From Cliona cf. orientalis (taxonomy: Eukaryota > Porifera > Demospongiae > Clionaida > Clionaidae): a DNA stretch of 64,000 nucleotides. This document shows positions 21,649 through 55,869 of the stretch, piece by piece. The notes under the pieces are model-generated. The model saw nothing but the letters and a program-made list of their open reading frames with translations. It was not told the DNA's origin and made no database searches. A program made the position numbers and the translations under genes. The stretch spans positions 6,262,001 to 6,326,000 of the forward strand of contig OZ005695.1 in NCBI GenBank assembly GCA_963930775.1, written 5' to 3'. Positions within the stretch are counted from its first letter, which is position 1; each line of letters begins with the position of its first letter.

Positions 21649-24600
21649 ATGGCGTCCAACCACAAAATCTATGGGAGCACTGTACCTGCGCTGATCATCC
21701 CTGATCATTTCTTTTGCAATGTAAGTTCAGTGCTTGTGATACGTACCTGCAATACTCCAGTGTACCACTGACCAAAACTTCATGGGAAGCGGTTTGATTG
21801 TTAGTGGGTGTGCAGGGTCTGAGATTACATTTGGCAGCAGATTATTACTACAGGGCACCTTTATCTGCAACCTTCCTTGTTCCCTAAGTAGTTTCGTCCC
21901 TTCTATTAAACTTGGTTATGCTTGGAGGCTGATCGATGTTTTGAGGCAAATAAGGTGCAAAATGTATGTCCCTACACTGTTACTCCTTCATAAGAAGACA
22001 GAGGGGGAGGGGGTGGCAATAATTACGTGGTGGGTGGGCAGGAGATATTACAAAATTCTCCTGTTACTATTACTTGCACCAGAGTCTTCTAATTGATCAA
22101 GAGCAAATGAAGCTCTTATTTTTACTGTCACTTTAATAGCTTCTCTTTTAGCTTAGCGCATGAGGTAGTCAAGACTACATGCATGCACATAACCTTAGCC
22201 CATAAGTGAGTGAGTCTTGGTTACTGAGGGGTGATCATGGATTAAATCCTCCTTTATTGTATATTGATTCTTTTTTTAGCAAAGCTCTAAGCTTGTTGTG
22301 ATATATGATGATCCGATTGGTGAAGAGGATGATGTAATCACACTAATGTTCCCTGGTGACGTGAGTGGTAGCTCCCCCAAGAGGGTTGTCCCGGAGAGGG
22401 TGGGAACAAGGACACTTGTCTTTGATACTCCAGGTAAATACTTTAACCCCATATTAACCATAATATTTTTTCCAGTATGTCCTGAGTATACTCAGGACGT
22501 TTTCCCCAGGCTATCTCTCCCAGTTCTTAATATTGTGCACAAAACTGGGAGAGAAGGCCTGGGGATGAAGGCATTTTCAGCTTGAAATTTGGAACAAAAT
22601 GAAATGGGTGTCAAAGTTAATACGTAGCCACTGGTTATTAGGCCCAGCTTGCTGTTAAGTGCATACTATATAGTGCACTGGTGCAAAATTTCATGGAATT
22701 GCTAATCCTTCAGAAGATATTTTCGTGGTTTTAGTTTTCACGCCTATGTTGATCGATTGTGCAGTACATATACAGCAATATTATGTATGACATCATGCTT
22801 TCTCCACCCATTTAGAATTTCTTGGCTTTTATTTTCTCAACTCCCTACTTTCATAGTTTTTATGCAGCCCTTACATCCTTAGGTGCTTAGATTTGTAGAG
22901 CGAATAAGTTTGTTTGGATGATAACAACGAGTTAGCAGACAACAAAACAGATCATTTTGTACCTATTACCGTATACTTTCTAATATAGGCGCCACCAAAA
23001 ATTAATTACAGATCGCGCAGGCGCCTCCAATTAGAACTGAAAAATTCACGAGCAGGTCAAAGGGCGCCTAAATTAGGGAGGCACCTAAGAGCTGCAATTA
23101 GAACGGTTCTGGAAGTTTTGCCAGAGCACAAACGCGATCACTAATCGGTCCTATTTAGTGGCAGTCAATATGATAGTGGCGAGAACAACAAAAATATGGT
23201 TCTAGTTTCAGTTCTTTTTCTGATCGCTGAATCATTCTCGAGTTGTCGGTACCGTAGCCATCAGAACGATTTTCTCTAACTCTAGAAAGACTCATCAAAG
23301 TAATCGGTAAGTGCCCATATAAATGTATGAGAGAGCTTAGTTTGACATCTAAACTACTAGCTCCGATAAATCAATTGCTGGTATCGCGGTATTGCCATAT
23401 ATGCATATGGCACGTGGCAATACGTTCCAATTAAATAGGCGCCGCCTAAAAATAATTGATCTCCGGAAAGGCGCCTTAAATTAGAACCGAAAAAATTGCG
23501 CAGGTCTCAAAGGGCGCCTAAATTAGGGTGGCGCCTATATTAGAACATATACGGTACCCCCCTTTGCGTGTACATGTATATGGTCGGGTGCATGTTCCAA
23601 GGGGTGGTTACTAATTGCAATTAAATATAACGTACTGGCACCCGCTACTGCAATCAAGGTTTTTGATCACACCTAATGATTGAGGTTTGAAATTGCGGTT
23701 GACCAAAGTACTAATTTACAGAGGTGAACACCAACATTTATAGCATAGAGAGGGGGGCGGGATCAAAAGTACCAGTCACACGTGTCACTACAGCAGATAC
23801 GGTATAGTGACCAACCCTTGGTGTTCATTTTGAAGTGTGAATGAATTATACTTGCAGCATAAGATTCAGTTTCATTTAAACATTTTGTGTACGTATGTGT
23901 ACCAGAGCTTTCTAACATTGTGCAGTGTCTACATTTTTTTCCTTAAGCACACATGATAAAATAACAGTGATTGAGCTCCATAATGATTTAACTGATGTAT
24001 ACACTAGCCTTCTAACTGTGATGTTTGTATTTGAGTACATGATTTTCCTTCATTACGATCATGTTATAGAAACAGCTCATTTTCCACCTACATAATCATT
24101 CTACACTAATCCCACGAGTATGCGTAACTATGAGAATATTATATTATGCTGTGTGTGTAGTTTTTGCATTCTGCATCTAAAGTTAGCTGACCTGATATTG
24201 GTTGGGGGTCAGAAGTGTGGCTATAAGTATTCCCTTTGAAGCCACCTGACATTGGCTTTATGTTCTGTTCTGTAGTATACTCCTCCTGTCGTGGTCTGGT
24301 TGAGGTTTTGCCACTGCTAAATCTCCAAAGTGGTGAGGTAGCCCAACTGGCGCACTTTAAGCTCACCCTCAAGCACCCTATAAGGAATGTCATGGAGCTC
24401 TGCCTTAACCTCTCCACCAATAACGCCATCTTACCCGTCCTTCTCTCTCTCATGGTGCACTGCCAAGGGGACAACTACAGGGAACACTTCCAGGTGACCC
24501 TTTACTGAAGAATATTATGGCTTCTTAGTCCCAGGCCCCCCCTCCCCCCCAATAGTTAACAGAAATAATAATATGATTGTGTAATACTACATTAAAGAAA

Positions 24601-27600
24601 AAGTGCCCTGTGCAATCTTGTATACCTACGTTTCTGCACTGAGTTATATTATAATACCATGTGTTATCTTCAACCTCAGACTTCCTTTTGGAGGGAGGGG
24701 GGCTGCACCCTTTGTAGTGGACAAAAGGGGAACCTGGGGGTTTGGATGGGAAGTGTATACAATGTACACTGTAGGTGCTAATGAATTTACACTGTGCTTT
24801 CTAGCGTTGAGAAATTCCCTGCTACTGTTTACACTCATAATATTGATGCAATATTATAGTCATTGTAGAGTTACAGTGTCACTGAAGGATACTTGAAGCC
24901 TTATATGACGTTTCACTATCAATGGAAGCGCTATACATGTTAAGCCAAGACTACAGGAAAGGGAGAGGGGGAGAGAGGGAAAAAGAGAAGAGAAAGGGGG
25001 TGGGGGGTGGGGAGGGAGGGGGGAGAGAGAGAGAGAGTAAGAAGGAAAGGAATAGAGCCTAGCCATTAACGTTGATTGAAGTTGTCCAATAACTCTGTGA
25101 GTTATCTATAGACTGTTTAAACAAGCTGTAAGTTGGTGTCTATTGCTTGCATACTCTCAGGAGAGCGAGCATCAACAAATCGTGTATCCGTTATGTAAAC
25201 AGTGGGTAACATTTAGCTGTTGTTGTTGAACGATTATTGCAGGATCCCCACATAGATCGAGTGATGGCTACACTGGTTGGCAGCAGGACTCCAGGGGACA
25301 GCACTTGCATTCAGGACATCATTTTGCCGAGTAAGCAAATTTATGGTATAGAACTATCTGTGCTGATACTAAACTGTGTTTATTATTGATCACTGTGTAG
25401 GTAGGAAGTGGCGACGAATGAATTTAACTGAATTTTCTCGTCTCTTTAACCTGGCAGAAATGGAAAAGCAGGCTTATGTTTTAAATAAAGTAAGAGGCAT
25501 TTTCCTCACCTTAATTGTGTTAGTATTATAATTGAATGGCTATTGGTTACTATAGCAACGTTCAAAGTGGGCATCAAAAGCATCAAAAAGAAGTAAGTAA
25601 TGCAGATGATAAAGAATATGAGAAAGGCGCCTAGGAATACAACAATTAGTTTGTTGTTGCATTTCTGTCAAAGACTAAAAGTGGCTAGCTGCAGGGTCTT
25701 GGGATGGGGTTTCAATATGTCTCCATTTGAGTGGTAGGTTTCCTCCAAGTATTATGTTGCATATCCACTTGGAAGCATGGTATGTGATTGTGTCCAGGCA
25801 AAACTATCGTGCACTCTCAGACGACTGATGGTGAGAGTGTTGATGTGGATGAGGAGGATGAAGAAGGTGAGGGTCAGCTGCGGCCGCACCTGTCCAGCTC
25901 CACTCCGGACATCCACACCATTCATACAACAGACAAGCAAGAGGGCAGGGACAGCGGGCTCAGTGATGACTCAGACGTCGTACAGAAGTTTGTGAGAGGT
26001 GCAAAGTTTGTTTGTCGAGTAATTGAGGACTTCATACCTACCAATGATCAGCCATCCTGCATTCCTCTCAGGGTCAGTAGCAGGCACTATCATTACTGAC
26101 ACCACCAAGATTTGACAATAATTATTTTTGAGAGGGAATGATACATCAATCAGTTGATTTACATCCCTACTTGTTTAATCTTTTTAGATGAATCAAGAGG
26201 TTCATATAGTTCAGGAGTCCAACTCGGATTGGTGGTATGGTGTGAGTGAAGACAGATGTGGCTACTTTCCTCCCACCTGTGTCCAGGCGATCAGGGGGCC
26301 CAGTAAGGTAAGCCAGCCTTGAATTGTAGTGAAGTCTCATTGCCTAGTGCTCTGACTACCATCTCGATCATGTCATGCTGCATACAAACATTATGTGATA
26401 CTATGATGTAAAAATTATATGTGCAATTATTGACCATGTGTTTTCCATTGATGCAGATGAGAAGTACAACCGTTTCAGAGCCTTCAACACGTTTATTTCA
26501 TCCACGGCCTGATCTCTCAACCAGCTTCCGTGAGGATCTTTCCTCTCACATCAAGAGTTCTCTACGTGGACAAACTCTAACAGAGTCTGGGGTAAGGATA
26601 ATTGCTGCACATGATTGTTATACCACGATTTCGTCTTCGAGCATGACCAATGTTCTGTGGGCTGATAATGAAACACTTCAATGCAGCAGTCTGTAGGTGT
26701 CATTATCAATAAATGCTAAAATTCAACAGCTGCTGCATGCTTAATGACTGCTTCCCAAAGCATTTGCGCATGTGTATACCTAATAATTGTAATATACACA
26801 CATAATATTATTATAAGTCCCATTACTGCAAGTATGCATGTAGTGTATGTTCCAATTAAGGTAGTGAAGTACAATGCATACACACATACATGTACCAATA
26901 CGTGCAGAGAAGTGATATTAGCCAACCAGAGTCCCCTAGTCGAGATCGGCGGAGGACTAACCCGAGTCGGTTGGTGGTGGGAGCAGGAGTGAAGAGGAGA
27001 GAAGATGGGATCCAGTCAGACAGTGGACTGCCAACTGCAGAGGAACCAAGGGTTACAGTAAGTTATCTTACAAGACTACATGGTACATTATGAAGGATAA
27101 TGTTTTTGTAGCATGAGAGAGCTACTGAAACTGCTAATGTTTTTGTGTGGGAGTTGTGTACGATATTTGGGTATACTGGGTATCTAAAAGCAATTAGTTT
27201 ATATTCAGCTGTTACTTAGTTTAAATTTCCATTATAAAAATGTTTGTGTAGTCTATGGCAGCTACGAAAATTAAAGAATATCCACACTATAATTTTAATG
27301 TGGTATAGATCCTTGAACACAAAAATTGTTTACAATATGAAAATTTCTGGATCTACAGTAGATTATGTTTGCGACTGTGTCACCATGAAAACACTATACT
27401 GTAATAGTGGAACCTCTCTATTATGGATACATGAAGTGTCCTTATTTCAGGGGTTGTTTTGTATATACTTCTCTCTGAAGCTGGGACAACGGACAGTGTC
27501 CAGATTAGAGAGTTGTACTGGGCCTCAGTAGGGAGGCTCCACTGCATGCGCATGTATATCGTATCAAAAATAATCTTATGCTTATCCGATATCTGCCTTG

Positions 27601-29444
27601 TCTGCAGGCTCGAAAGCCACCCACGCCATACACAAAGCAGCAACTGCTACAGAAAGTGACTCCCATACTGCCCCCTGCCTCATACAAGTCCCACCGGTCT
27701 CATCCACCCACCTCTCCCGGCCACGCTGACAGTGTGGAGAGCTCAGACTTCGAAGGCTACGAGGATGTGATGTCAGATGAGGAAGAGGGAGCAGTGGTGA
27801 AGAGCCAGTGGACCACTGGAGCCACACCCACCACAGCACCAGCTGAGGTAAGCTGTTCGGCAGCTATCCAAAGTCTACCTATTGCTGAGCACACTAGCAA
27901 AAGGCAGCTAATCCTGCTTTTTGTTGTGTCTATGTATATGTATGTATGTCTGTCATGCTTTGGTAGTTTTATAACTGTGCACAAAAGAAAGGTTATTATA
28001 CTCGCTTGCATGCACACATGTTGACATGTTATGGTATCACACGTGCACACACACATATTCTTCATAGCAAATGGAGGTGAAGACACCATTTGTTCCCCCA
28101 TTCATGCGAGATAAGATCTTACCTGCTGTACCAGATCAATGGTCACCGCCTCAAAAGCAAGATGCTAGGTTGCCAAGTGATAGCAACTATGAGGATGTGA
28201 TTGTGCCAACTGCTGACTACGAGAACATAACACTGGATGCGTTTGAGATTGTGGACGATCACATCTATGACCGTGCCGATAAGGTCCTCAACAAGCACTC
28301 ATCAATATACAAGATAACTGCCAGTAGTGCTCACATGCAGGCTGTGACTCAGTTGGCACTCAAGAAGCAAGGAGCACAAGGCGATCATCAGAGGACAGAA
28401 AATGACCCGATAGATCAAAAGTTTGGAAGGCTACGGCAGCATTCAATTAAGGACGCTGATGATCCACCACTGTCCATGAGTCCAAGAACTGCTGCATTTG
28501 TACCTCCTCGTGATGTTCCTAGACCACACCCATCTCCGGTACACTATTTGAATACATCCCCCTTAGTGGATAGCACAGGCACCCCGGCAGGATGGAAAGG
28601 CACTATTTCCCCTCCACACTCTGGGTCCCCTACAGTGGCCTCCAAGGTACAGGAGTCACCCATATTGCCACCAAAAACCTTTGCTTTCCCGACTATGCCA
28701 CCAAAAGATTCGGATGCACCTATATTGCCGTCAAAAGTAGCTCCAGCACCCCCTCCCAAAACTGGAGCTTCACCAAAGAAAGCACCTATTCCTCCCCCAA
28801 AGATGATATCTGAGGCTCCTATTCCTCCAGCAAAAGTTGCACCAGAGGTTCCATTTGTACATCCAAAAACTACAACAGCAGCTCCATTTCCACCCCCAAG
28901 GAGTGAATCTGAGGCACCAATTCCACCCCCAAGGAGTTTGAGTGAGTCTGAGGCACCTATTCCACCCCCAAGGAGTGGGCCCGAGGTGCCAGTTTTACCT
29001 CCAAAGACACCACATTCTGCATCTGAGGCTCCAATTCCACCCTGGAGATCAGAAGCTCCAGCTCCACCCAGAAGGTCGTCAGAGCCAAGGTCAGAGACAC
29101 CAAGTCTCACTTTACCACCAAAGGTACCATCTAGTCAGTCAAATTCACCAGCGGTTCATCCAAAGCCTTTGAAGCGACCTACAGGGGCAACAGCGCCAGT
29201 GCCCATCCCTCCACCCAAGCCAGTAAAGCAAGAGCCTCCACCACCACCACCCAAGACTGGAAACTCATACTTGAACAAATTCAATGAAAGTGGAGATCAT
29301 GGGAAGAGAGGCCTGGGAGGGAACAACACTTTTCCTCAGCCTGCAGTAAGAATGCTACCAGTCAATGAAATTGCACAACGTGCAGCAGCTCTACAGCAAA
29401 GTGGTGTCCTGACTGCTAGTAAGAGATATTATAAGCCTTCTTGA
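21649..29444 (+). CDS. SH3 adaptor 1: beta/helical N-terminal module, SH3, Tyr motifs, Pro-rich tail
   Basis: Twelve exons were read: 21649-21720, 22280-22433, 24276-24493, 25243-25330, 25401-25489, 25556-25592, 25798-26072, 26188-26307, 26457-26591, 26908-27057, 27608-27847 and 28068-29444. They close to 984 aa. An N-terminal module (about 1-180) reads as beta strands (KLVVIYDD, ITLMFPGD, TRTLVFDTP) followed by helices. An SH3 domain at about 288-345 has the expected SDWWYG and CGYFPPTCVQAI. Tyrosine motifs GYEDV, NYEDV, DYENI and IYDRA (about 497-592) look like SH2 ligands. Residues about 750-925 are repeats such as EAPIPPPRS and PILPPK, typical SH3 ligands. I do not recognise an orthologue by name. 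It matches adaptor 2 in layout and intron phases. A cytoplasmic signalling scaffold is inferred. Confidence 0.85.
22967..23556. mobile_element. TACCGTAT-ended inverted-repeat element, 590 bp
   Basis: Left TIR TACCGTATACTTTCTAATAT and its inverted partner ATATTAGAACATATACGGTA extend about 31 bases with a few mismatches. The interior carries repeated GGCGCCT/AAATTAG blocks and no ORF. It lies in the second intron of adaptor 1. Confidence 0.85.
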
Positions 29445-29743
29445 CCATCACTGTTAATTATTTTGTGGCAAATCAACATACTTAATAATTATTAAAGATA
29501 ATATTATTATTATAGCAGTGGCATACCACTTGTGAAACTAGAGCATATCTCCCTTGCCATCCTGCACCTATCTGCACAGAGATGAGTGCTGCCTATTTAT
29601 GAATTGATCAGGTATATATATATATAGCACAATCACCAAGTGACATCAAGAGTACCACCTTGTACATGTACTTGTATGTGTACCTCAATCATCAACCAGT
29701 ATCATTGTATACGAGTTAAATAACATTGCCTGATGTACCCTTG

Positions 29744-29749
29744 AATAAA
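29744..29749 (+). promoter_or_regulatory. Possible polyadenylation signal AATAAA
   Basis: A canonical hexamer 300 bases after the adaptor 1 stop codon and before the convergent TMLHE stop. No cleavage site can be seen from sequence. Confidence 0.4.
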
Positions 29750-29838
29750 AATGCATGGCTGAACATAATAAATAAATGAGTTGACTCATACAGCAGATTT
29801 GATCATCCATGTGTGACTCCAGGGCTGCTTAGTATAAG

Positions 29839-31896
29839 TTAATGATTCAGTTTGTTCCTGGTGACCATTACCCTACTCCTCCAGTCCTCCCTGTTCACAT
29901 AGCCTCCACACAGCCGCCTCCTATCAGTGAACGCAGTGCGGGCATGGAGAACTCGGTGATTATCAAAGATCAACGCCCTTCCTGGCTTCAAGTGAAATCG
30001 ATACTGGTACTCTCTCTCCCTCATGGTCTTCATGAAGGTCTGAATAGCTCCATATACATCAGCAATGGAGCCAGTTGGCTTCACCCTGTGCAGGGCTTGT
30101 AGTGTCCTGGTACTGATGGGGGAGCGGTCACAGTTGTTGAAGTGTACTTGCGAGATGCACCCTGTAGCTGGATTTAGAGTGAAGGGGACATAGGAGTTGA
30201 GGTAGTGGTTGTCCTTATCCTTATAACAGTAGTCAAGGGGAACCGTTGAGAGGATGTGGTAGTGTTCGGGATTAGCCTCTTTGATGACTTGAGCAAGTTT
30301 GAAGCCATCCACCAGAACACTTTCACCACCAGTGCCCTTAAAGTAGGTCACATGCAGCATTTGTAGACCTGGAGATTAATAATCCATTAATATTGTTGCT
30401 AGTACCCTGCAGCTGAATAAGTAAGTATATACTGTGCCAATGAAAGCACTGCAATACAAATATTATTTTCAATCCCTGATAAAAGAAATCGACGAGGAAA
30501 AGTACACGTATATCTTGTGGATACACACCCATGAGGGCTAGCTGAAAATCGAACCAGCTCAAGACGTGGTTAATAAAATTATCATACAGTTACTTTCATT
30601 TTTATCATTTCCAGGTATATAGTTGGGGCTGGCAAAAATGCAAGAATATTTTGGCTACAATACTATAGTTCTGAGCACAACAAACAAGTACAAAATTGTG
30701 GCTAATGCTCACCTGGTGCATCAAGGAAATAGTTTCCATCAGTATGGGAGTCTATTCCCATCGCAGTGTATGCAGTGTCTCTGAAATTAATAATACCGGT
30801 ATTATTTATTATACCACAGTGTCCCAGGCAAGTACCCACTCCCAGGTAAGCGTCCATGTACCACATTTCAAGGCATTAGTGTAGCAGCTTCTATACAAAT
30901 GTTATATCCTGGTGTGGGCCAAAACTGCAAGTTATGTTTCAGTGCCCATGGGCGTTTGCCCGGGACACTATATACAGTAATAATCAAAGTGAATAATGAC
31001 AAGTAAATTACATAAGGCCATTAAAAGTTATTACTTGTTCCCATCCCAATCTATACATGTATTCTGCCTCTATGATGCTGTCGTATACCCAATGACCATC
31101 CTTTACCAAATATCTCACAAAATTTTAATGGTGCTTGGAAATGATTCTTAGTTGTTTTTTTTTACATAGGTGCATACCCATGTTCCATATCATCAGCAGG
31201 CCTTGCAGTCACCTCAATATCCCAAAAGTCCCCATAGAACGTATTACGCAACACTCCTACTCTTTCTAATACTCTCCTAGAGAAGTGTGGTTCAAGAGGA
31301 ATTCCATCAATGAAGCAGAAGCCTCGTTGATCCACTTTATCTGACCACTCCAACCAGGCTCGCTCATCCTTTATGAATCTGCCATAGTCCACAACTGGAG
31401 GTGCACAGCTGATCTCCCTACCCCAAGTAGCAACTCCACTTGAGTCAAGCTCAATGACACTCTCTGGTCGCTGCCCTTCTCCTTGGCTTTCATATTCATA
31501 GGAGTGAGCCTTCAACCATGCCAGTGGGTAATTGGACTGGTGCCCATCCTCCCACTCAACTGCCAAGCTATCGTGGTGTATGGATCCACTGTTTTCACGT
31601 AGCTGCACTGATCTTGGTCTGAGGTCAGCACTGATGGTGAGGGTGTCCAGCAGTCTTTGCTGAGTCTGAGGGTGGTAGCACTCACTACACTGACAGTTGT
31701 CTCTCAGCCAGATGTGGTGAAACTTGCTCCAGAAGCTGGGTACACTGTCGTCTCTTCTCTTCCATTTGATCTCAACTGAATCCGTACTTTGTTTGAGGCT
31801 GACTCCAGCCTTGTTAAGTTGTGTACTCAAGAGTCGTGAATTTCGTATGGAGAAGTGGCTACGAGCATATGCATACGCGGTTAATAACCCTCGCAT
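29839..31896 (-). CDS. TMLHE: Trimethyllysine dioxygenase, mitochondrial
   Basis: This Fe(II)/2-oxoglutarate oxygenase performs the first step of carnitine synthesis, hydroxylating N6-trimethyllysine. Three exons (31896-31178, 30780-30713, 30368-29839) close to 438 aa; the human protein is 421. The N-terminus is basic and amphipathic (SHFSIRNSRLLS), fitting a mitochondrial presequence. The small zinc-binding domain shows WLRDNCQCSECYHP. The catalytic part has DTAYT, the iron ligands HTD in DSHTDGNYF, GTGGESVLVDGF, and the distal FDNHRVLHAR with the third His and the 2-oxoglutarate Arg close by. The spacing GDTAYT...HTD...GTGG favours TMLHE over gamma-butyrobetaine dioxygenase. The middle exon is only 68 bases. 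The gene is convergent with adaptor 1. Confidence 0.9.
30818..30972. mobile_element. MITE with splice-donor-like ends, second copy
   Basis: Ends AGTGTCCCAGGCAAGTACCC and GGGCGTTTGCCCGGGACACT are inverted relatives of the 18131 and 56727 copies. It lies in the first TMLHE intron. Confidence 0.65.
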
Positions 31897-32676
31897 CTCG
31901 ATTATCGTAAGTGGGTGTGGTTCGAGGGTGTGGCCTCACCTAGACACGTGATTACCGATCGATCGAGGTTTTTGTACGGTTTCTTTGCGAGCTTCTAAAA
32001 CTTCGTTCTTGCTTGCTAGAGGGAGTCCAGCTCCATCGCCGGCTCCAAGGATGTCAAACAGAGTGACCTACTTTGAGGGCAGCCACAAGTCCACGGTCGT
32101 CCCGGACTCCCGGACTCCATGACCCACCAAGTAAATTTTTGCGTCGACCTTAAATAGTCGCTCTTCTTGGTGAACACCGACACTGAATTCTTTTCGGTAG
32201 CAGCAGGCGTCAAACATGGTTTTCTATCTTCTGGATCTTTCATAGCTGCCACATGGCTGTAGTATCGCCGAAGTCCAATCGCCCGATGAACAAATTTTCG
32301 CGACGCCTAAAATCTTCGCCCATTCTGGGCTTAATAGCCTGCCTGGTCCTTTGCTTTGACCAGCTGTGGCAAAAGTTGATCGCTATGCACTAGCTAACTC
32401 TTAGTCTTAACTCTATCGCCAGTGTCTGTTAATCAAAACATTTGTAGAACCTTAGCCTCGAACCCAGGCTCCCCGAAAGTGAGCCTGGATTCGAGGCTAG
32501 TAGAACCTATGCATGCCTGCAATAGTTTCTGTACTGACTTGACTCACATGGTCAATGGCAAGGGAAAGTCCCGTTTGGTCACGTGGTCTAATTGTGCATG
32601 CGCACAGAGCTAGAGCTGAGCGAGGAACCCTACACTTCAGTGTATCGCTAGTAATCACAGGTAATAGCGCCTTAGC
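31897..32676. other. Divergent intergenic region TMLHE/TRIM-NHL
   Basis: It holds both promoters. A near-perfect palindrome at about 32454-32500 (arms TAGCCTCGAACCCAGGCT and AGCCTGGATTCGAGGCTA) belongs to a short dispersed family. A GC-richer block at 32020-32130 contains a short ATG frame at 32051-32122 (MSNRVTYFEGSHKS...) of 23 codons, which I cannot assign. Confidence 0.5.
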
Positions 32677-34890
32677 ATGGAAGAAGAGGTTCAAGTTTCA
32701 ACTAAGGAAGCACTAGATAAGCTCAATGCTAAGCTGGAGTGTGCTATTTGCTTTGATACATACCAGGATCCTAAACTGCTACCATGTTTTCACGTGTTCT
32801 GCAAGCAGTGTCTAGATAAACTTGTGGTAGAAGATGGTTCCTCTCTCAGCTGCCCTACCTGCCGCCATGTGACACCGTTACCCAAGGGGGTGGCTGGTTT
32901 GCAGACTGACTTTCACGTTGAGCACATGTTTGAAATCCGTGATGCATTCAAGAAGGCTACCAAGTTTACACAAGAAAGTTTATGTGACAAATGCAAGCAA
33001 GAGGATGCTGTAGTTTTCTGCTCAAACTGCAACCAGTTCATCTGTGATAAATGCAAGAACATGCACCAGCTCTTTTCTGAGCTAAAGATCCACCAGATAG
33101 TGTCACTGGACAGAGTTAGAGAAGATGCCACCAATATGGTCCGCACTAGCAAGCAGACTCTGCACTGCCCTAAGCATCCCAGTGAGATATTGAAGCTCTA
33201 CTGCGAGACATGCGTTGAGCTGATCTGCCCCGACTGTATTGTCAAGCTCCACAAGGATCACGACTATGATCTGGTGGTGGATGTCTTCACCAAGCACAAG
33301 GAGGAGATCGTTGCACAGGTCCAACCCTTGAAACAGCAACTGGAAGAGACTGATAAAAGTCTTCTCAAGTTTAATGCTAGAGAGAAAGAGATCACAGAAC
33401 AGAATGAAACCGCTAAAGAGAAACTCCATGAAGAATTCGATGAGCTCCATAGGATTTTGGAACAGAGGAGAGCTGAGCTTGGGGCTAAGCTGGATCAACT
33501 TGCACAAAAGAAGCTGAAGAAGTTGGCAGCCCAAAAGGATCATGTAGAAATGCTTCAAGCTCAGTTGAGTAGCTGCTTAGAGCATGCTGAGGGAGGGCTG
33601 AGGACAGGTACTGAGGCTCAGGTGCTAGCAATGAAGAAGCCAGTGCTCCAACGAATCAAACAGATCACCACTGAAGTTCAGACCTGCTTAGAGCCGGAAG
33701 AGGAAGCAAACATTGCCATTGTTGTAACCATGAAAGAAACTCTTCACAAGTCCTGCGCTCAGTTTGTTGACATTATTGAGAATCCTGGCAATAGTGGCCA
33801 GAAAGAGGTACTTCAACGTACACATGTTGGCAAGCGATCCAGTTTCATAGTCCATGTTGGCGGTGATAAGGAAGCTACTCACCTCACTGCTGAGTTAACT
33901 CATGAGACATCTACCAACTGTACAATCGTGAGGCAGTCCAAGGGACAGTATGAGGTGTGCTATCGGCCTATCAGGGTAGGGAAACATGAACTGCACATCA
34001 AAGCTGGTGGACATGATGTCCTAGGGAGCCCGTTTACCATTGTGGTATCGCCATCAAAGAAACACCTTCGTAAACCATCTGTAGTTCTGAATGAAATAGA
34101 AGGGCCAATTGCTCTCGCAGTAAACCATGATTGTGATATTATTGTGACAGAGAGTAATTCAAATTTGATAACGGTTGCAGTTCTGTCCCAGGATGGAAAA
34201 AGAAGGCAGACTCTTGAGCTCGTTAGTGAAGGAAAATTTAAAAATCCTCATGGAGTGACCATGGACTCTAGAGGGAATGTGTATGTTACTGACCGTGATG
34301 CCAGTTGTGTCTACATGTTCACACCACAGCACACCTTGATCCAATCAGTAGGATCAAGAGGCAGTGGAAACTTACAGTTTTTTCATCCAATTGGAATTTC
34401 GTTCAACCCTAAAGGAAACAAATTTTATGTATGCGACGAAGATAATCATCGAGTGCAAGTGTTGAGAAATGACTTGTCATATGACTATTGTTTTGGCAGG
34501 AAAGGGACAGAGGCTGGAGAATTCACCAACCCTCTCTATGCAGCGTTCGATAGCAAAGGAGATGTTTACATCACCGACTGCTACAATAACCGTGTACAGG
34601 TGTTCACTCCTGGTGGTCAGTTTATACGATCTATCCAGGACAAGTCTCGTGGTCAGAAATTGGAGCATCCTTATGCAATTGCTATTGATAGTGTTGACAA
34701 TGTATACGTCAGTGAGAGGGACAGACACTGTATCACTATATTCAACTCGGACGGTCAGTATGTGTCGTCCTTTGATGGGGAAAGTCAATTCCATGGTATC
34801 TATGGATTATACTATGATGATTTCTGTGGTTCCCTTTTTGTGTCTGACCATTTCAATAACTGTATCCTTAAATTTGATATGTCCCAGTGA
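32677..34890 (+). CDS. TRIM-NHL protein, intronless
   Basis: This is a probable RING-type E3 ubiquitin ligase of the TRIM2/TRIM3/TRIM71 type, 737 aa in one exon. Domains in order: RING at about 22-62 (CAICFDTYQDP, CFHVFCKQC, CPTCR); two B-boxes at about 103-145 and 163-200; a coiled coil at about 205-310; a filamin/Ig-like domain at about 385-457 ending GSPFTIVV; and an NHL beta-propeller from about 480 to the end (PHGVTMDSRGNVYVTD, HPIGISFNPKGNKFYVCD, NPLYAAFDSKGDVYITD, HPYAIAIDSVDNVYVSE). All RING zinc ligands are present. NHL propellers in this family bind RNA or protein partners. The lack of introns contrasts with every neighbour and suggests a retrocopy origin or an expanded lineage. The exact vertebrate orthologue is not clear. 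Confidence 0.95.
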   Translation: MEEEVQVSTKEALDKLNAKLECAICFDTYQDPKLLPCFHVFCKQCLDKLVVEDGSSLSCPTCRHVTPLPKGVAGLQTDFHVEHMFEIRDAFKKATKFTQESLCDKCKQEDAVVFCSNCNQFICDKCKNMHQLFSELKIHQIVSLDRVREDATNMVRTSKQTLHCPKHPSEILKLYCETCVELICPDCIVKLHKDHDYDLVVDVFTKHKEEIVAQVQPLKQQLEETDKSLLKFNAREKEITEQNETAKEKLHEEFDELHRILEQRRAELGAKLDQLAQKKLKKLAAQKDHVEMLQAQLSSCLEHAEGGLRTGTEAQVLAMKKPVLQRIKQITTEVQTCLEPEEEANIAIVVTMKETLHKSCAQFVDIIENPGNSGQKEVLQRTHVGKRSSFIVHVGGDKEATHLTAELTHETSTNCTIVRQSKGQYEVCYRPIRVGKHELHIKAGGHDVLGSPFTIVVSPSKKHLRKPSVVLNEIEGPIALAVNHDCDIIVTESNSNLITVAVLSQDGKRRQTLELVSEGKFKNPHGVTMDSRGNVYVTDRDASCVYMFTPQHTLIQSVGSRGSGNLQFFHPIGISFNPKGNKFYVCDEDNHRVQVLRNDLSYDYCFGRKGTEAGEFTNPLYAAFDSKGDVYITDCYNNRVQVFTPGGQFIRSIQDKSRGQKLEHPYAIAIDSVDNVYVSERDRHCITIFNSDGQYVSSFDGESQFHGIYGLYYDDFCGSLFVSDHFNNCILKFDMSQ

Positions 34891-34893
34891 TTA

Positions 34894-40083: not shown

Positions 40084-40632
40084 TTGCTCATAATACAGGG
40101 AGACCCCACTGCATGGTGAAGAGCAGGCACATACGTGTAACATTACAAGGCTCCATGTTTGAAATTTATAAACTCAGGTTCATGGCTTCTTACAAGTGAA
40201 CTTTGTTGTTTTCTCCTAGCTCTATTGGTACAGCTACAGTCTCTCCCTAGGCCCTCGCTTGGATTTAGTATACGTCACAGAAGATAAGAGAGTAGCAGAG
40301 AAATGGAGCAATGAAGAGGCACTCTGGATCATGGAACAGCGACTTCAAAAGCTAGCTCTGCAAAATTACTTGGAGCACGTGATAAACGATAATCCTGCTC
40401 GCTGATTGGCTACGTTTAAATTTGAACATGCATGCATACCTTCAACGTGTAATTAGAGAAGATCCCAGTGCCAAGGAGAATTAGAAGAGTACCTCCTTCT
40501 CAAGTGGCTGTTTATTTATTCTGGATCCCGTTCCTCAACGCTCTAGGGTTGGGTGAGAGAACAGTATCGACCTGGAATTCGAACTGTAAGACAGTGAAGG
40601 CAAAGCTGTGGATATTCTAATTATAGAGCACC
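40084..40632. promoter_or_regulatory. Divergent region ARMC1/MTFR1-like
   Basis: About 550 bp lie between the two start codons. It contains an inverted CCAAT box (GATTGGCT at 40404-40411). It also contains an unassigned exon-like frame, listed separately. The shared promoter is inferred. Confidence 0.45.
40220..40405 (+). other. Unassigned exon-like open frame
   Basis: Directly after an acceptor-like TTTTCTCCTAG, a frame of 61 sense codons runs to TGA: it starts LYWYSYSLSLGPRLDLVYVT and continues with EDKRVAEKWSNEEALWIMEQ. It has no ATG at its start, so it would be a terminal exon of a plus-strand gene whose other exons I could not find. The amino-acid composition looks protein-like. I do not recognise the family. 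It may be chance or an old gene remnant. Confidence 0.35.
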
Positions 40633-47587: not shown

Positions 47588-50500
47588 TCAATTTCTCTTT
47601 GGTTTTGGGCTGGTTTTGGGCCCAGAGTGCTCACGGCGGTTGAATGCTGGTCCCGGGCTTGAAGTTGGGGTGTGTTTTGGTTTTCTTGCCACTGGTGGTG
47701 CAGCGGCCTTGGCCTTGCCCTTGAAAAATATTGCATTTTCGTAGGCTACTGTTGTGGGTTCTGGCGAATGCTGTGGACTTTGTCCATGAACTCCTGAGCC
47801 ATTACTTATTTCAAGTCTCTGAGAATCGGATGAGCTTTTTGCTCGTGTTGACCTGAATGCCTTGGGAGATCCTCCATTAGTTTCTTGGCTTTGGTATGTT
47901 GAAGGCGGTGTGGGTGTACTGTCCAGTCCGGTCGTATTGCATGTAGCTGTAGTGTGGGATCGTGATGAACGTACTTGTACTGGGGTACTGCCGCCGGTTG
48001 ACTGAATGTGGCGTCTGGGTTTTGGAATGGGTGGCCTCTCCAATACCTTTGGAGGAGACTTTCCAAATACTGGATTATCAAATCTTTCCGCTGCATTCAT
48101 AGGTTGCTCTTGAGGTGGGAATGGTGCTGCTGGCTTTTCCCAAACTGGCCTTTTTTGTAGCACTAGTGGAGGCTTATCTGGTAGTTCAGGTAGTGGCTTG
48201 TCTGGTAGTAGTGGTGGAGGTCTATCTGGCAGTGGTTGTGATGGCAGCTCTGGTGGAGGCTTTTCAGGTAGTGGTGGTGGTAGCTTATCTGGTAGCTCTG
48301 GTGGAGGCTTTTCTGGTAGCACTGGTACTGGCTTTTCAGGGAGTGCTGGTGCAGGTAAAGGCTTCTCAGGTAGCTCAGGTAGGGGCTTCTCTGGCAATAC
48401 TGGTGGGGGCTGAGGCTTTTCTGGTAAAGCTGGTGGGGACACTTCAGGTTGCAAGTCTGCTAGTGGTTGAGTTTCTGACAGTTGAGGAAGTGATCTTTCT
48501 GGTAATGTTTGAGGAGATGGGTCATTTGAAACCCTTGTTCTCTTAGCTGGTCTAGGCTTTGTAGTGGGTTGGGGTTCACTAACAATGCGTGGCCGGTTGT
48601 GCCTTGGGCTTGGACTTTTCACGGATGTTCCCCTTCGTGGAGAGATGGCATTCCCCACTCCTGCTGACTGCGTTTGGTGACTCACTCGTGGCGGCAGTGA
48701 GTTACTTTTGGTTGTCATGGCAATGGGAGATTGTTCTATGAACACATCAGAACCCTCTGAGCCTTCAGGGGTGACAGTATTCCTGCCATCTTCTAGTTCT
48801 GAGATCTCTGAACTTTGCTCTAACTCATGGTTTGAGGAGCTTGGTGGTGTCTTCCTTTGCATGTGCTGCATGTTTTCACTGTCCATGACTGAGGCCCACA
48901 TGACCTGTTGTTCAGTGCTGTGTGGGGCCATGAGGGAACCCTGCACATCAATGGTTGAGTCTGTGTCGTGAGTGTATGGCACTTGTTTGACGACTGGAGA
49001 TTGCTTAGATGGAACTGCGTCATTGATATCTGCATATTGGAGTTTGCTTGTGGAGTGTGTATTATCCTGGTGGGATGGGATGACTTGGGCACTGGCTGTG
49101 GGCACAGATGGACCGACATCTTTAATCTCAGCGTAGCCCCACCCTGACTGACTAGGCAGTGTTTTCTGATGTTCATCTGCTATCTTTGCAGTATGTGCTG
49201 ATACAGGGATCAGCTGGTCATACTCCGAGCCTTGTTCCTCTGTAATTATGTCGTGAACTGATCGGAGGACTGATGAAGGAACATCGTAGATCCCGTCTGT
49301 GTCCACCTTCTCACTCTCGTCTGGGACATATACTTCCGTCACCCTCTCTTTCTGTTGCTGTTCAGCTCCATTGGTATTGTGCTGTGGGACTGTCCTACTC
49401 ACTGATGTGGTCTCTATCTCTCTCTCTCCTCTCAACTGTTGCTGGTCTATGACAGTTTGTGGAATGGTGCTGCGATCTTTTTCCAGCTGAATATTGTCTG
49501 ACAGTAAGGATTCCAAAATCCGGTTCCTATTTGGGACTTTCATATAGTGCTGTACAGGGATAAGATTTAATAATAGTATTACACCGTAAGTAATTTGCCA
49601 AAATTATTGTGTTCATGAAGCCACTTACCCCCTCAGTGATGAGCTTGTTGAGGACGTCTTCCCTATTAGGAGGTACGTCATAGATATGGTCACTGTCATC
49701 AGAGTCAGAGTCACTGCTGGCAACCCTTGGCTGTATATGGTGTGGTGTGGGGTATATGTCGATATGAGATAATGATCTTCTTGTAAATAAAAGCAAGTCC
49801 CACATGCACATATTATGGATGTAGACGCACATGTACATGTGTGGGTATATCCTGGCTTGTATCTTAGCTCAGTCCCAGCTCTCAGTACAATACCCAAATA
49901 CAGACTGAAAGTTACATGTATTGTTGTAGAGTATAAGTTGGTATGCTGTACATGTAGGCTTGTGTACTCATACCCAAGTTCCCAGACTTTAGTTTCCAAA
50001 CACATGTATATACATCCTCTAATAATTTGTGGTAGGTAAAAACTAAGTGTAGCCCCCCTGTTATATCCCCCTGTTCCTGAGTAACCAGGTGATCCTGTTA
50101 TTCTGCATGCAGCCCTGTTCTTCCTGTGCCAAGGTTTCAGTTTAGAAAAGGAACCACCTTCAACGTGCATGCATAGTAGTAAACACGAAGCCAGGAAAAT
50201 TATCTTTCAGGGTTTAGATAATTGCACTTGCAGGGATTGCACAAACATACGAGGAAATATTCTTTGTTTGCATAATGAAGCTGGACATAAGTAATAATAA
50301 TAGTATTAGTCTGGCTTATTAGCAGGTCAGCATGGTTGTGTATTTTCATTTGAATGTTATGGTGGGAGGCATGATGTCACTGGAGTGGAGTCAGTGAAAC
50401 ATGGAGGGGCAATGGGGGGGGGGGGGGGGGGGGGGAATCCCAGGGTACCCCACCCTCTGTATCAAACTTTTTTACTTGTATACTGTAATGGTAAAATTTT

Positions 50501-53181
50501 GCTTTTATTTATTGTATGCTGTATCTTGTAATGGTAATAGTAATTTTTCTCGCTTACTGATCTTTAGCACTGTGTGTGCCCACTTACCACATTCCTGGGG
50601 ATCTTGTATACTTCATCATCATCATCACTAGCTCCGTTGAAGCTCACTCTGTCATAGTCATGCTCATCCTCCAAATCATCAACCTGCAAAAAATATGTAG
50701 CATACATTATACAGTGTGATTAATTTTAGTAAATTTAGCCAAGTACTTACATCTTCTCCTGACAGAATACACAGTATGGACTTGGGGAATTTGCAGTAGT
50801 GACCATTGCATACCCCAACACACATATTGTCTTCAATCTCCTGAGTCACATACACCTTATCACCAATCTGTGTGTACACATAGGCATTGTCCATAATGAG
50901 CACATGAACTGTAGTGTTACAATAGTAGCTAGCCATGTGGAAAGCCAACTTACTTCCAGCACAAAGTTGATGTTGGTGGAAGCCACCCATCTGTACTGCC
51001 TGACTATCTCTGCCTTGTAGATGGCCTTCTCCTGAAGCTCTGCCACTGCATTGGACACAGCACTGCCATAGCCAGAAGAGAGAGAGGACACAGGCCTCGC
51101 TCGATGCTCTGTGACCTGCAGCTGGCCTGGCACATGCATACTCTCTCTAGTGGAGGGAGGAGGGGTGAGGGGAGGCCGCTCCAGTGGTTTAGGGGAGCCA
51201 GGTATGTGTTTTTCTATTCGAGGCAGTGTGCGGGAAAACCTCCTCTGGTCATAGGTACTTTCATCCTTGCCGGCCATGGAGTAGACTGAACTCACACCGC
51301 TGGTGGGTGGGCCAGGGTCTGCAGGTCCAGGAATGGTGATGGATGCTGTAGAGGCAATGGAATTCCTCTGGCTCTGAGGGAGGGTAGCAGAACGCATGTC
51401 TTCAATGGATTCACCACGTGGAAGCTAGAAAAATGGAACATAACGTTAGGCTGATCAGATATCATCTCTACAATGTAATCAGCATGGATCAATTCATATA
51501 AAAGTGTGGGATGGCAGTATGAATCCTATTGGGTAAATTGTGCATGACACTGCTCATTGTTGCCATACCTCCTCCACTGGGGGCTGCTGGGGAGCTGGGA
51601 TGTTAATCTGCATAGAGTGTACAATAATAGCATTATTTTGACTGGAAAGGGAGCATGCCCACTATGTAATTGAATCACTGCTTCCCCATAGCAGTTATAT
51701 GTACATGTAACAATCAATGGCAACATTTATCTTGCACTACAACCATATTAAATGCATGTAAGCTAGAGTTATTCAATTTCCCTGCTAATTCCCCGTGCTT
51801 TACAAATAGATTGCTATTTGGCTGGCCAGCAGCTGTGCGTTAATGTCAACCAAACAATAGCAATATGTATGCTACCATAGTTGTATTAATCACCGTCATC
51901 AGCCAGATAATCATGCAACTACAGCTCTACACTGTTTACATGTACTGTACTTGGTTTTGATTAAAAAAATAACCTACAAATACTAAGTATACAGGCACAA
52001 ATTGACGGTTGCATGTATGTTATTCTAGTTCCGTACTACTGCACACCTCGATCACTTTGACAGATCACTTCCTAACTGAAGTGAAGCAGGATGGGCCATC
52101 CTGTTTGATGTTGGACTAAGACACAAAAATGGTGGGTGATAGAGTTGTACGCACAGGGAATTCCTAAACTTAAAATGATGCTGAAAATGTGTTGAGAGTG
52201 TAACCTACAAGTCAAGATGAGCAATTATTCATTGCCATATTGATGCTGTACCATGGAGCTTACTTGTATGGTTCACATGATTGTATTGATCACCGGATAA
52301 ATGCCAGCTATGAAGCCACTTTGGTAAACCATTTAAGCCTTGTTATGATAACAGCCAACAAGACTACGTACATGAGATTACTGCTAATGTGCACATCAGC
52401 GATAGTGGAAGGTAATTGACTGTACATATTATTACCTTTTCAGTATGGATCTAACCTCACTGGACTTATTGACAACAACAGCTTAAAAACATCTACATTC
52501 TCTACTGATATTGATAACAGTAGCTACACCCCACAACAACAACAACAGCTACTCAAAAGATTCACAGACAAGGTTAAGTACCTGTCACTAACTCCACTAA
52601 AACATGAAATATCTGGTGTGATTATATAGATGTTGTCACAGGGTTTTATCTGGTCCGAAAATTGGGGGGGGGGGGGGGGGGGGGGGGGGGAATAGGGCGG
52701 TATAGCTAGACTAAAGGGCCACCTTGGTGGCCAAAAGGGGTGGGTGCAGGAGGGAGCACAATAGTGCGGGAAGCCAAAGCATAAAATTAATATTAGTGTT
52801 CCCAAAAAGCCATCTATGCAACATGAATTTTCAATTAAAATTGGGGGGAGGGGGGGGGGGGACAGCTCTATGCAGATAAACCCCTGTGTCAGCTGTCGCT
52901 CTGGATGCAGTGGTAAACTACCCTCAAATTGCTACTAACCTTTTCTCTGGTTTCACTTTTGAACAGCTGTCGAAGCATGCGCTTTGCTCCTTTACCCTAT
53001 ATGTATGACATTGTAGCAGTAATATTAAGGTAGATGTTGTGTATCACCATATCATATAATGTCAAGCCAGTGGTTACCTTTTCCTTCTTCTTATGTGGAG
53101 AAGTTGGACTCTCTGTGGATAAAAAGCTTATTATTCCAAATTTCTACTATAATAATATTTATTATGCGTATGTATGTGTGT

Positions 53182-53221
<40 letters not shown>

Positions 53222-55869
53222 ACATTCTTATGCCACACACAAGCACACATGTATGCAACAGACCCACTCACACACATTCTACCATGCACTCACCTTGAGC
53301 ACAGTAGTGCAAGTTGGAGTCAATGGAAGAGGCTCTGGGGATGTCATGTTTACGGTTAAACTTCTTTTTGGATTTCTAACAAAAAATATATGCATGTAAT
53401 ACATGTAAGTGCCAGTGCACATGCATGCGCTGTCTGAATAATGGTGCTTACCGGTGTTGATAGCTTCATGACACCACTTGCCTGCATAGTGAATGGAAGG
53501 ATCTTACAACAATGAAGAATACCACATAATTATACTACACAAGATTTATTGATAATAATTTTGGTGTGTGGTGGTCCACCCATGCAAGTGGGTTGATGTG
53601 GTCAGAGAGTGTACACTGCTAGCTACTTGAGGTTAGACCACCAAGCACTCCCACCATGCCATGCCTGGCCATAGATTGCCTGCCCGCCTGTTGCCTTACT
53701 AGGAGCTAGTGAGCCAGCACCCAGGAATCACATTGTCAGTATGTAGTTAGCAGGGCTTCAAGTAGGCAGCCCGGAACATGAAAAGTTGTACAGGGACTAT
53801 CATCTACCAACTAAGAAGACATTTCAACTTCCCAATGATGACATTTCTAATGCTTTGATGACTCTTGTTTGACTATTAGATCATATGCATACACAAACAC
53901 CTTTAACACACACACACACACACACACACACACGATCTACGAGACTACTACTATGATTTACTTACAGTTAGCTGCTCTGCTGCTTCAGTCACGGCTACTA
54001 AGCCGTGTTTCTTGGCAATCTCCACGGGTGTTTTGTTATCAGGACCTTTTTGGAGAAGATAGTGAGCTCTCTCCTCAATGAACCATGGCTGAAGGAGAAT
54101 ATCCAGGGACTGAGTCAGCTTGCGGCGAGTGCACATGTGGAGCAGGTTCTCCGCTGGACTGAAATTACCTATGATATTATTGTGTTTAAATTGAGTAAGC
54201 ATGCTCTGCGTGATAAATGCATGGGTAACCCTACAATGGTCATACTCTCTAGCCCCACCATTCCATTGTAAAAGTGGTGTGACATTGAAATAATATCAGG
54301 GGTGAGCCAGGGGACAGTGTTACTCTAGGTTGTATGCTGACTCTTCTACTCTTGGGTGTGCATAGTAATAATTATTACAATAATACGATGATGTTGTGCT
54401 ATCTTGCCGTGTGCATGGAAAATGGCAGGTAGCATAACTCACACCAGCAAATATGTACACAATCACTTTAGAACTTGCAACTTTTCACCTGTAGGCAGTG
54501 AGTGTAGCTAAGCAAATTAGCTGAAGCCCGACTCAGTCACCAGCACCTTAATCGCTAAGCATCCTACAAGCAAGCATTTAGGCAGCACAAAAATTGAAAC
54601 CTCTAAAGTTAATTACGAGTAATAGCAAACTCGTTCATAAACTGCAAGATGTTACGCATGGTGTTTGGTTTTAATTTAGGGTTAGCCATGCTAGAGTGAG
54701 TTTGAAGGTGGTAATATTATGTGGGAGGTGGAGGCCACATCAAGGGCAGCCCTAGTCACTCACCACAGAGAAGCCAGGCCAGTATCCACTCTGGGAGGTC
54801 AGCTGGCTGGATATCTTTGAGGATCTCACTGATCACTTGATCAGCGTTCATGGTGGCTTCTCTGTCCTTGTCATCGCAGTTGGCAAGGTAGGCCACTACA
54901 GCGGCCAGCATGGCTACCTGACTAGACCCACGTTTCGTTGGAAGACTGCTGGCCAGGGCCTCAATTGGACTCTGAACCTTCAGCTGGAACTGTGGGAAGC
55001 AGGAGTCTTCATTACGAGCCAGTAGAACAGTGATATTCACAATGCCTGGCTTGGGAAACACTGTTGATGGTGTGCACATAATGTGTGTGTTTGTGTGTGT
55101 GTGTGTGTAGGGCAAGGATTATGATAGGTTGCCTACATGTGTCCTCGTGTGTATATATACGTTGTATAATTTGAAAAACGTTTATATTAGCCCTGATATT
55201 GACGGCATCCAACAGTTCACTGAAACTGCTGCCCAGCTTACAACTACAAGAGGTCAGTGACCTTGTGAAACCCATGAGTGCAACACTATTGGTATGATTC
55301 AGTTTCTACTATTGATTTTGACTGACCTGGGAACATTGCCCTGACAGTGCGTGGTCCAAGCAGTGCAGTAGGAAGAGTGCCAAACTTGCTACTCTCACCC
55401 TCATAGTAGAGGTCCAGGGTAAGGAACGAGTTCTTGGGGATTTCTCTGCGAAATTCAATCACTACCACCTGCTCCTTCTACAATGTCATGTTAATAATAA
55501 TAATATTATTAAAACTCTGGGCTAACAGTATGTCTGGGATAGCTTTCAGTTTCAATTTTTGAGATACAGTAATGGCACATCTATAGACAATCATGATCAT
55601 CAATGTACAAGAATAATATGTTCGATAATAATAACAATGCAAACGGAGTTCTAGTTTTATGAGATAAATATTCAAATTTTTGCAAACTGTAGAAGACAAG
55701 CTACACATTATTGTGACAAATAAACCACAAGCTACTGCAAGTAAGCTACTAGTCTACTGAGTAGCTAGTGTTAGCGCGATGCCGATCGCATAAGACATGA
55801 TAATTTTGTAGTTGGGCTTACCTCGAGAAGGAGAGAGGGGGGAGTCACAGTGGGAGCTGCAATAGCCAT
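47588..55869 (-). CDS. SH3 adaptor 2: beta/helical module, ankyrin-like segment, divergent SH3, Tyr motifs, PEKP repeats
   Basis: Fourteen exons were read: 55869-55822, 55477-55327, 55045-54764, 54153-53966, 53481-53452, 53375-53294, 53112-53078, 52996-52940, 51607-51569, 51424-50954, 50867-50751, 50683-50588, 49730-49629 and 49549-47588. They close to 1219 aa. Residues about 17-67 are beta-rich (VVVIEFRREI, FLTLDLYYEGE) and 67-160 helical. Residues 161-223 look ankyrin-like (ENLLHMCTRRKLTQSLDILL, TPVEIAKKHGL). An SH3-like fold at about 440-495 lacks the usual Trp. Tyrosine motifs include DYDRV, VYKIP, two IYDVP and YMKVP. Residues about 936-1025 are PEKP-type repeats. The N-terminal order resembles the DBB region of BCAP/BANK/Dof, without TIR. 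A phosphotyrosine signalling scaffold is inferred. Confidence 0.85.
48173..48440 (-). repeat. Coding minisatellite, PEKP proline repeats
   Basis: A degenerate tandem repeat encodes units such as LPEKPLPELPEKP and LPDKPLPELPDKP inside the last exon of adaptor 2. Each unit holds PxxP cores. Copy number would be expected to vary between individuals. Confidence 0.85.
50414..50435. repeat. Poly(G) tract, 22 bases
   Basis: An uninterrupted G run in an adaptor 2 intron, followed by CACCCTCTGTATCAAAC. That tail resembles the right arm of the poly(G)-bearing element at 39695. Confidence 0.9.
52638..52886. mobile_element. Poly(G)-bearing inverted-repeat element, 249 bp
   Basis: Ends ACAGGGTTTTATCTG and CAGATAAACCCCTGT are inverted copies with one mismatch. 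A 27-G run (52664-52690) follows the left arm, and a G-rich run (52843-52861) precedes the right arm. It lies in an adaptor 2 intron. Confidence 0.75.
53185..53225. repeat. (CA)n microsatellite
   Basis: A dinucleotide run in an adaptor 2 intron. Further CA/GT runs lie at 53909-53933 and 55083-55109 in the same gene. Confidence 0.95.

Follow-up and report, generated by a model that had tools for sequence, protein, structure and literature searches.

Two genes that lie in opposite orientation in a 64,000-nucleotide stretch of the sponge Cliona cf. orientalis (contig OZ005695.1, positions 6,262,001 to 6,326,000, forward strand; in the following the window, to which all positions refer) raise the question whether they descend from one ancestor and whether the beta-rich and helical head of their predicted proteins belongs to a known family. 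Both proteins, here termed adaptor 1 and adaptor 2, carry an SH3-like part behind this head and end in a long proline-rich tail. With modest confidence we favour the interpretation as ancient paralogous docking scaffolds, predicted to be cytoplasmic and tyrosine-phosphorylated, with a divergent head of the type known from the adaptors Dof, BCAP and BANK (DBB), an internal SH3 domain and, in the tail, ligands for SH2 and SH3 domains.

Gene models and relationship of the two adaptors

Adaptor 1 was modelled at 21649-29444 on the plus strand with 12 exons and 984 amino acids, adaptor 2 at 47588-55869 on the minus strand with 13 exons and 1211 amino acids, the spacing being 18.1 kb. All introns are of the GT-AG type, the exon phases are mutually consistent and the frame stays open through the 12 and 13 exons; both genes stand as complete predicted models. 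The order of parts described in the first-pass annotation was recovered for both: a short first exon ending in phase 0, a second exon (154 nt in adaptor 1, 151 nt in adaptor 2) that closes in phase 1 behind a codon for Pro, helices, a basic stretch, the SH3-like part, tyrosines and the Pro-rich tail. The common layout of the helical exons held only in part. Helical exons occur in both genes, but the helical part of adaptor 1 contains one more intron, and adaptor 2 has an exon with the look of an ankyrin pair (54168-53966) that is without counterpart in adaptor 1 and had not been mentioned before.

Adaptor 1 and adaptor 2 are probably ancient paralogues, as had been proposed; the head alignment, a shared intron position in the SH3 part and a tail motif support this, none of them being overwhelming. 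In global alignment the heads reach z 3.6 (3/1000 shuffles; local alignment 9/1000). With the ankyrin region removed, z is 3.9-4.3 (1-3/1000), and 0 of 58 non-ankyrin segments, taken as overlapping pieces from 13 sequences including the adaptors' own tails, align as well. The SH3 parts align globally with z 3.9 (2/1000; local 24/1000). Their intron falls on the same residue in four of four alignments and the following intron is one residue off (p 0.002-0.003). Further, both tails contain the motif DHIYD-x3/7-VLNK, at residues 590 and 538, and such a pair occurred in 0 of 5000 shuffles; since the motif was first spotted by eye, this shuffle test is partly post hoc.

Convergence of non-paralogous scaffolds on similar parts, which we consider quite improbable, would explain why BLASTP between the two proteins is not significant (E 0.28) and why the tails beyond the one motif show no alignment apart from their common Pro richness. 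In searches of the 216.8 Mb assembly (149 contigs) at E 1, each adaptor retrieved only its own gene and not the other; a contig scan for stray relatives gave 23 pattern matches, of which none was confirmed. The coincidence of head introns depends on the alignment setting, with two exact positions in two of four settings, one in one and none in one. One of 25 windows from ankyrin proteins (L019) beats adaptor 2 on the adaptor 1 head with z 4-5, which is the one better match among 83 other segments (58 non-ankyrin and 25 ankyrin); on the adaptor 2 head, 0 of 25 beat adaptor 1. Because of this window a z near 4 is no proof, and the better fit of an ankyrin segment to the adaptor 1 head slightly lowered our confidence both in the favoured interpretation and in the more specific evolutionary proposal discussed below. 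Against convergence stand the head values given above, the identical order of parts, the SH3 intron at a common place and the DHIYD/VLNK motif.

In the L019 alignment, DTPVYSSCRGLVEVLPLL of adaptor 1 (22420-22433 joined to 24276-24493) lies opposite the ankyrin repeat DTPLFNACRVGSIAVIEKLI at z 4-5, either by chance or as an ankyrin-like reading of the exon.

For the local inverted duplication suggested as the origin of the pair, no DNA trace of a recent event was found: no repeat of at least 60 nt joins the two loci. The gene pair appears to be old, with no sign of an origin in place by inversion.

The head as a probable divergent DBB module

The head probably resembles that of the BCAP, BANK1 and Dof adaptors, at the limit of detection and with moderate support. 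Animals employ these adaptors in passing on receptor signals, and their DBB module consists of a TIG fold and helices, with ankyrin repeats behind. The Pfam family PF14545 (DBB) was nominated from the translations ahead of any Pfam result. Among 24,736 models it matched adaptor 1 in register over residues 16-86 (positions 2-67 of the 139-position profile; E 0.11-0.13), and E 0.11 corresponds to about 4e-6 for one pre-named model, uncorrected for the handful of fragments tried. It was reported in four of the seven adaptor 1 queries holding the region, one of the queries being mistyped. Human BCAP and BANK1 sequences (BCAP identical to PDB 6sws over the solved part) served as controls and match DBB strongly with E 4.7e-54 and 8.5e-24.

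The whole head of adaptor 2 aligns with BANK1 at 1 and 4/1000 shuffles in global mode, 21 and 12/1000 in local mode and 0/500 in a further global test. In hhalign, BCAP and BANK1 combined match adaptor 2 with P 0.019 (2/300 shuffles), with helix 3 and the ankyrin pair in register, and adaptor 1 more weakly (P 0.089, 23/300). A four-sequence profile finds adaptor 2 at 8/5000 shuffles; without the ankyrin part the value is 32/3000 and 0 of 58 segments score as well. When adaptor 2 is added, the profile recovers adaptor 1 (12/5000), and with adaptor 1 added it recovers adaptor 2 (1/5000), a gain that may reflect no more than the paralogy itself. Once the ankyrin part is removed, adaptor 2 aligns with BANK1 at 41 and 32/1000 and with the RhoGEF described below at 18 and 25/1000.

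A number of results weigh against the DBB assignment. Every DBB match lies below the Pfam cut-off, and Ldh_1_C scores equally, which makes DBB as a blind match noise. PF14545 went unreported for adaptor 1 residues 1-361 or 1-207 and for adaptor 2 in every query. Adaptor 1 is not significant against BCAP or BANK1 alone, and the four-sequence profile does not find it (3547/5000; without ankyrin 1500/3000, with 31 of 58 segments as good); without ankyrin it reaches 51 to 55/1000 against BANK1 and less against the others. The whole head of adaptor 2 is not significant against BCAP alone (95/1000), and without ankyrin it gives 814 and 805/1000 against BCAP and also nothing against ARHGEF28. Models of single exons were poor: exon 3 reached a predicted local distance difference test (pLDDT) score of 47.7 and the ankyrin exon 68.9, the latter with one Foldseek match at E 6.3, and no convincing fold match was obtained for the ankyrin exon model. 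Ordinary ankyrin proteins outscore this exon against BANK1; its ankyrin likeness was reached in 15/3000 shuffles, yet an unbiased window scan put it second of 1637 frames, at E 0.7. Finally, the YxxM PI3K motif, a feature of BCAP, occurs in neither adaptor. A profile of both adaptors did not retrieve 6SWS from the PDB sequences.

These null results leave room for paralogous scaffolds whose head is an unrelated fold and resembles DBB by chance, as would suit the apparently undescribed adaptor family of the first-pass annotation. No part of the DBB evidence reaches a curated cut-off, pairwise tests were null in several cases, and nothing matched the single-exon fold. We nevertheless regard an unrelated fold as unlikely, as the pre-named family was matched in register, the BANK1 alignment is reached in 1-4/1000 shuffles in global mode and intron boundaries are common to adaptor 2 and a sponge RhoGEF. 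The head is most likely of the known DBB type, and the novelty would lie in the SH3 domain, which is unmentioned for such a protein in the excerpted text of PMC7260276, PMC7128310 and PMC6937578. The CABIT (THEMIS/GAREM), CAS and ADAP architectures were also considered and dropped for want of a Pfam match or because of the wrong domain order.

Concerning the ankyrin part, the BCAP and BANK1 controls are instructive. Pfam gave no match for the ankyrin part of BCAP and E 0.011 for that of BANK1, so that a missing Pfam ankyrin match in adaptor 2 means little. In adaptor 1, no ankyrin part was found by Pfam in residues 1-361 and 447-984, and none of the open frames of the locus was convincing; the best (E 0.42) lies nearly entirely within the intron preceding exon 12. 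The ankyrin part of adaptor 1 appears to have been lost or eroded. Ankyrin decoys, fetched as BANK1/BCAP matches, reached z 3.5 in 12 of 46 windows against BANK1 and in 9 of 46 against the RhoGEF. As decoys attain this value so often, the set is unfit to test the ankyrin part, and 25 of its windows were reused for the head alone.

Comparison with a RhoGEF of the same genome

The top match of BCAP in the genome is an ankyrin exon on contig C14 (E 4.9e-4), which ranks second for BANK1 (E 0.023). The exons upstream of it resemble ARHGEF28 (z 30), and a RhoGEF domain (3.1e-21) follows about 10 kb beyond; we infer that all of these belong to one gene. Its beta exon of 142 nt runs from phase 0 to phase 1 and is Pro-final when read by eye, as in both adaptors.

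An origin of the head from the front end of an AKAP13/ARHGEF28-type RhoGEF, which would place a Rho-GEF head on SH3 scaffolds instead of one from the DBB adaptors, was weighed with these data. The beta exons of both adaptors are closer to the sponge RhoGEF exon and to ARHGEF28 (2-6/1000) than to BCAP and BANK1 (14-598/1000); for adaptor 1 the shuffle values are 4/1000 against adaptor 2, 6/1000 against the sponge RhoGEF, 598/1000 against BCAP and 261/1000 against BANK1. The introns on both sides of the adaptor 2 beta exon coincide with those of the RhoGEF in four of four alignments (p 2e-5 to 8e-5), and at p 0.008-0.018 when the first intron is left out, a position that has an advantage since the RhoGEF piece begins there. 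At the intron that precedes the ankyrin exon the phases agree, with the positions 8 or 12 residues apart in these alignments. For adaptor 1, introns coincide in one of four settings. On the other side, the whole head of adaptor 1 gives a null result against the RhoGEF (245/500; without ankyrin 95 and 123/1000), and adaptor 2 is just as near to BANK1. BCAP and ARHGEF28 without ankyrin do not align with each other (468 and 450/1000). No RhoGEF/DH domain was found in residues 1-361 of adaptor 1, 1-524 of adaptor 2 or the long last exons. We find a RhoGEF origin rather improbable and retain the DBB-type head as the preferred assignment.

The front end of the RhoGEF on C14 may itself share the DBB head. 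Since BCAP and ARHGEF28 cannot be aligned without their ankyrin parts, pairwise sequence comparison has little power at such distance. The idea that BCAP and ARHGEF28 share their whole head was weakened by the loss of any alignment once ankyrin was removed.

SH3 domains and tail motifs

The Pfam scans covered residues 1-361 and 447-984 of adaptor 1 and 1-524 and 559-1211 of adaptor 2, with 362-446 and 525-558 lying between the scanned parts. In adaptor 1 they identified a canonical SH3 domain at residues 291-344 (SH3_2, E 4.8e-9). The closest solved sequence is the STAC SH3 (E 1.1e-8), to which DWWYG and GYFPP align, and the ligand-binding Trp and Pro are kept. The SH3 of adaptor 2 is sub-threshold (SH3_2, E 0.019) and goes unreported with the longer query of 524 residues; its best solved relative is CIN85 (E 0.0038), whose EGWW stands opposite DNMC, with the binding Trp replaced. 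An SH3 fold in both proteins, as annotated before, is therefore clear for adaptor 1, whereas that of adaptor 2 appears to be degenerate, lacks the ligand Trp and more likely serves as a structural or non-canonical contact. Everything beyond the SH3 differs from STAC and CIN85. No further Pfam domain above cut-off was found in the scanned residues of either adaptor.

The abundance of PxxP ligands in both proteins was borne out. Adaptor 1 contains 16 class II PxxPx[RK] motifs, all in the tail, and adaptor 2 contains 10, nine of them in the tail; in both cases 0 of 500 tail shuffles match the count. Among the tyrosine motifs of adaptor 1 are two YEDV and three YxN, the latter count being attained in 2/500 shuffles. 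Adaptor 2 has two YDVP, YAEI, YADI, YDQL and one YxN, with five YxxV/I/L in its tail (attained in 19/500 shuffles). The SH2 classes assigned to these motifs are predictions from consensus motifs. Judged by these counts, both adaptors show the DBB-adaptor trait of SH2 and SH3 docking motifs in the tail. A mutual SH3-PxxP network of the two proteins, as suggested earlier, is plausible as a prediction, via the SH3 of adaptor 1 only.

Proposed function and significance

In BCAP the TIG-helix head dimerises the protein (PMC7128310, as excerpted). Pro-rich stretches hold SH3 partners, phosphotyrosines recruit SH2 proteins and GRB2 binds via its own SH3 (excerpts of PMC7128310 and PMC6937578). By analogy, the putative TIG-helix head would dimerise the sponge scaffolds, and the head or the ankyrin part might meet an activated tyrosine-kinase complex. 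Kinases would then phosphorylate the YxN, YDVP and YAEI/YADI sites, which could recruit SH2 proteins of the GRB2, Crk/Nck and Src types, and the PxxP array would hold SH3 proteins constitutively. Through its SH3, adaptor 1 could reach out to a further partner, perhaps its own Pro arrays or those of adaptor 2, and so close a loop.

Similar to Dof/stumps, BCAP (PIK3AP1) and BANK1, the adaptors combine a putative TIG-helix head with a long tail of SH2-ligand tyrosines and PxxP motifs, and adaptor 2 alone has the putative ankyrin-like pair. In contrast to these proteins they own an SH3 and lack YxxM, adaptor 1 is without ankyrin and the DBB match stays below cut-off. Like cnidarian Dof in the excerpt of PMC7260276, the adaptor models as scanned carry no TIR domain; further 5' exons are possible. 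With the AKAP13/ARHGEF28 RhoGEFs they share the exon order of beta, helix and ankyrin parts and, for adaptor 2 and the RhoGEF of the same genome, both the position and the phase of the first two introns; unlike those, no DH domain was found in the scanned residues. YDVP motifs and PxxP ligands also recall the p130Cas/CAS scaffolds, in which the SH3 is N-terminal and not internal as in the adaptors.

According to the excerpted text of PMC7260276, Dof occurs in cnidarians and bilaterians, and Dof, BANK and BCAP were not found in Amphimedon, Mnemiopsis and Trichoplax, which was taken as fitting a joint rise of Dof and FGFR; the "SH2/SH3 domains" of this text are understood here as binding sites. 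No sponge or SH3-bearing DBB protein appeared in the titles and abstract openings of the open-access literature matches listed. As a tentative proposal, held with less confidence than the scaffold assignment itself, the adaptors may form an SH3-bearing sponge branch of Dof/BCAP/BANK. The DBB scaffold would then predate the sponge split, apparently with no FGFR to serve, the SH3 would have been lost in vertebrates or gained in sponges, and the head would perhaps be shared with AKAP13/ARHGEF28. If the adaptors are true DBB scaffolds, the correlation of Dof and FGFR breaks, the scaffold being older than FGFR or used with other tyrosine kinases, and the sponge version carries an SH3 of its own as the new element (adaptor 1). 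If the head is common to the RhoGEFs, one ancient TIG-helix-ankyrin dimerisation module would have served scaffolds and Rho exchange factors alike.

Feature coordinates and neighbouring genes

Table 1. Exons of the two adaptor genes (window positions) and location of the RhoGEF used for comparison.
Feature	Position	Strand	Remarks
Adaptor 1 exon 1, MASNHKIYGSTVPALIIPDHFFCN	21649..21720	+	start of TIG-like head; ends in phase 0; Pfam DBB alignment begins at residue 16
Adaptor 1 exon 2	22280..22433	+	core beta exon of TIG-like head; phase 0 to 1
Adaptor 1 exon 3	24276..24493	+	final strands plus the first helices; in register with adaptor 2 by BLASTP (E 0.28)
Adaptor 1 exon 4, helix HIDRVMATLVGSRTP	25243..25330	+	aligned to ADQVISEILKDIQP of adaptor 2
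Adaptor 1 exon 5	25401..25489	+	short helical exon at the place of the adaptor 2 ankyrin-like exon
Adaptor 1 exon 6	25556..25592	+	basic linker
Adaptor 1 exon 7	25798..26072	+	acidic linker, then first half of SH3
Adaptor 1 exon 8	26188..26307	+	second half of SH3 (DWWYG, GYFPPTCV)
Adaptor 1 exons 9-11	26457-26591, 26908-27057, 27608-27847	+	linker with YEDV
Adaptor 1 exon 12	28068..29444	+	YEDV, YENI, DHIYD..VLNK, YLNT, class II PxxP array, YLNK, stop
Adaptor 2 exon 1, MAIAAPTVTPPSLLLE	55822..55869	-	ends in phase 0
Adaptor 2 exon 2	55327..55477	-	core beta exon; phase 0 to 1; its two ends coincide with those of the sponge RhoGEF exon
Adaptor 2 exon 3	54764..55045	-	last strands, helices, with ADQVISEILKDIQP; phase 1 to 1
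Adaptor 2 exon 4	53966..54168	-	ankyrin-like pair (LLHMCTRRKL ... TPVEIAKKHG)
Adaptor 2 exons 5-8	53481-53452, 53375-53294, 53112-53078, 52996-52940	-	basic linker
Adaptor 2 exon 9	50954..51424	-	Ser/Pro linker, then first half of SH3-like part
Adaptor 2 exon 10	50751..50867	-	second half of SH3-like part, Trp replaced (DNMCVGV, CKFPKSIL)
Adaptor 2 exons 11-12	50683-50588, 49730-49629	-	YDRV, YKIP, DHIYDVP..VLNK
Adaptor 2 exon 13	47588..49549	-	YDVP, YDQL, YAEI, YADI, PELPEKP array, YENA, stop
AKAP13/ARHGEF28-like RhoGEF	L020:5915 to L021:141 and L022:2-871 (contig C14)		human BCAP finds its best match in the genome in the ankyrin exon

Directly downstream of adaptor 1, on the opposite strand, pieces resembling gamma-butyrobetaine hydroxylase (GBBH-like N-terminus, TauD) were found at 29842-31935. 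Between the adaptors, an open frame of 740 amino acids at 32668-34890 contains RING, B-boxes, filamin and NHL repeats and is of the TRIM-NHL type. The gene pair is flanked by a direct repeat of about 280 nt (6658-6939 and 57696-57982; 91-94% identity, 51 kb apart). An inverted repeat at 18555-18615 and 19110-19170 has 61-nt arms that are 98% complementary and 494 nt apart, similar to a foldback element or a miniature inverted-repeat transposable element (MITE).

Elsewhere in the genome, silicatein genes mark the source as a siliceous sponge, most likely a demosponge; one stretch matches silicatein at 86%. A silicatein copy with the motif CGASYAFSA, in which Ser presumably occupies the position of the catalytic Cys of cathepsins, is located on contig C12 (L010), and many silicatein/cathepsin-like matches occur on contigs C19 and C16.

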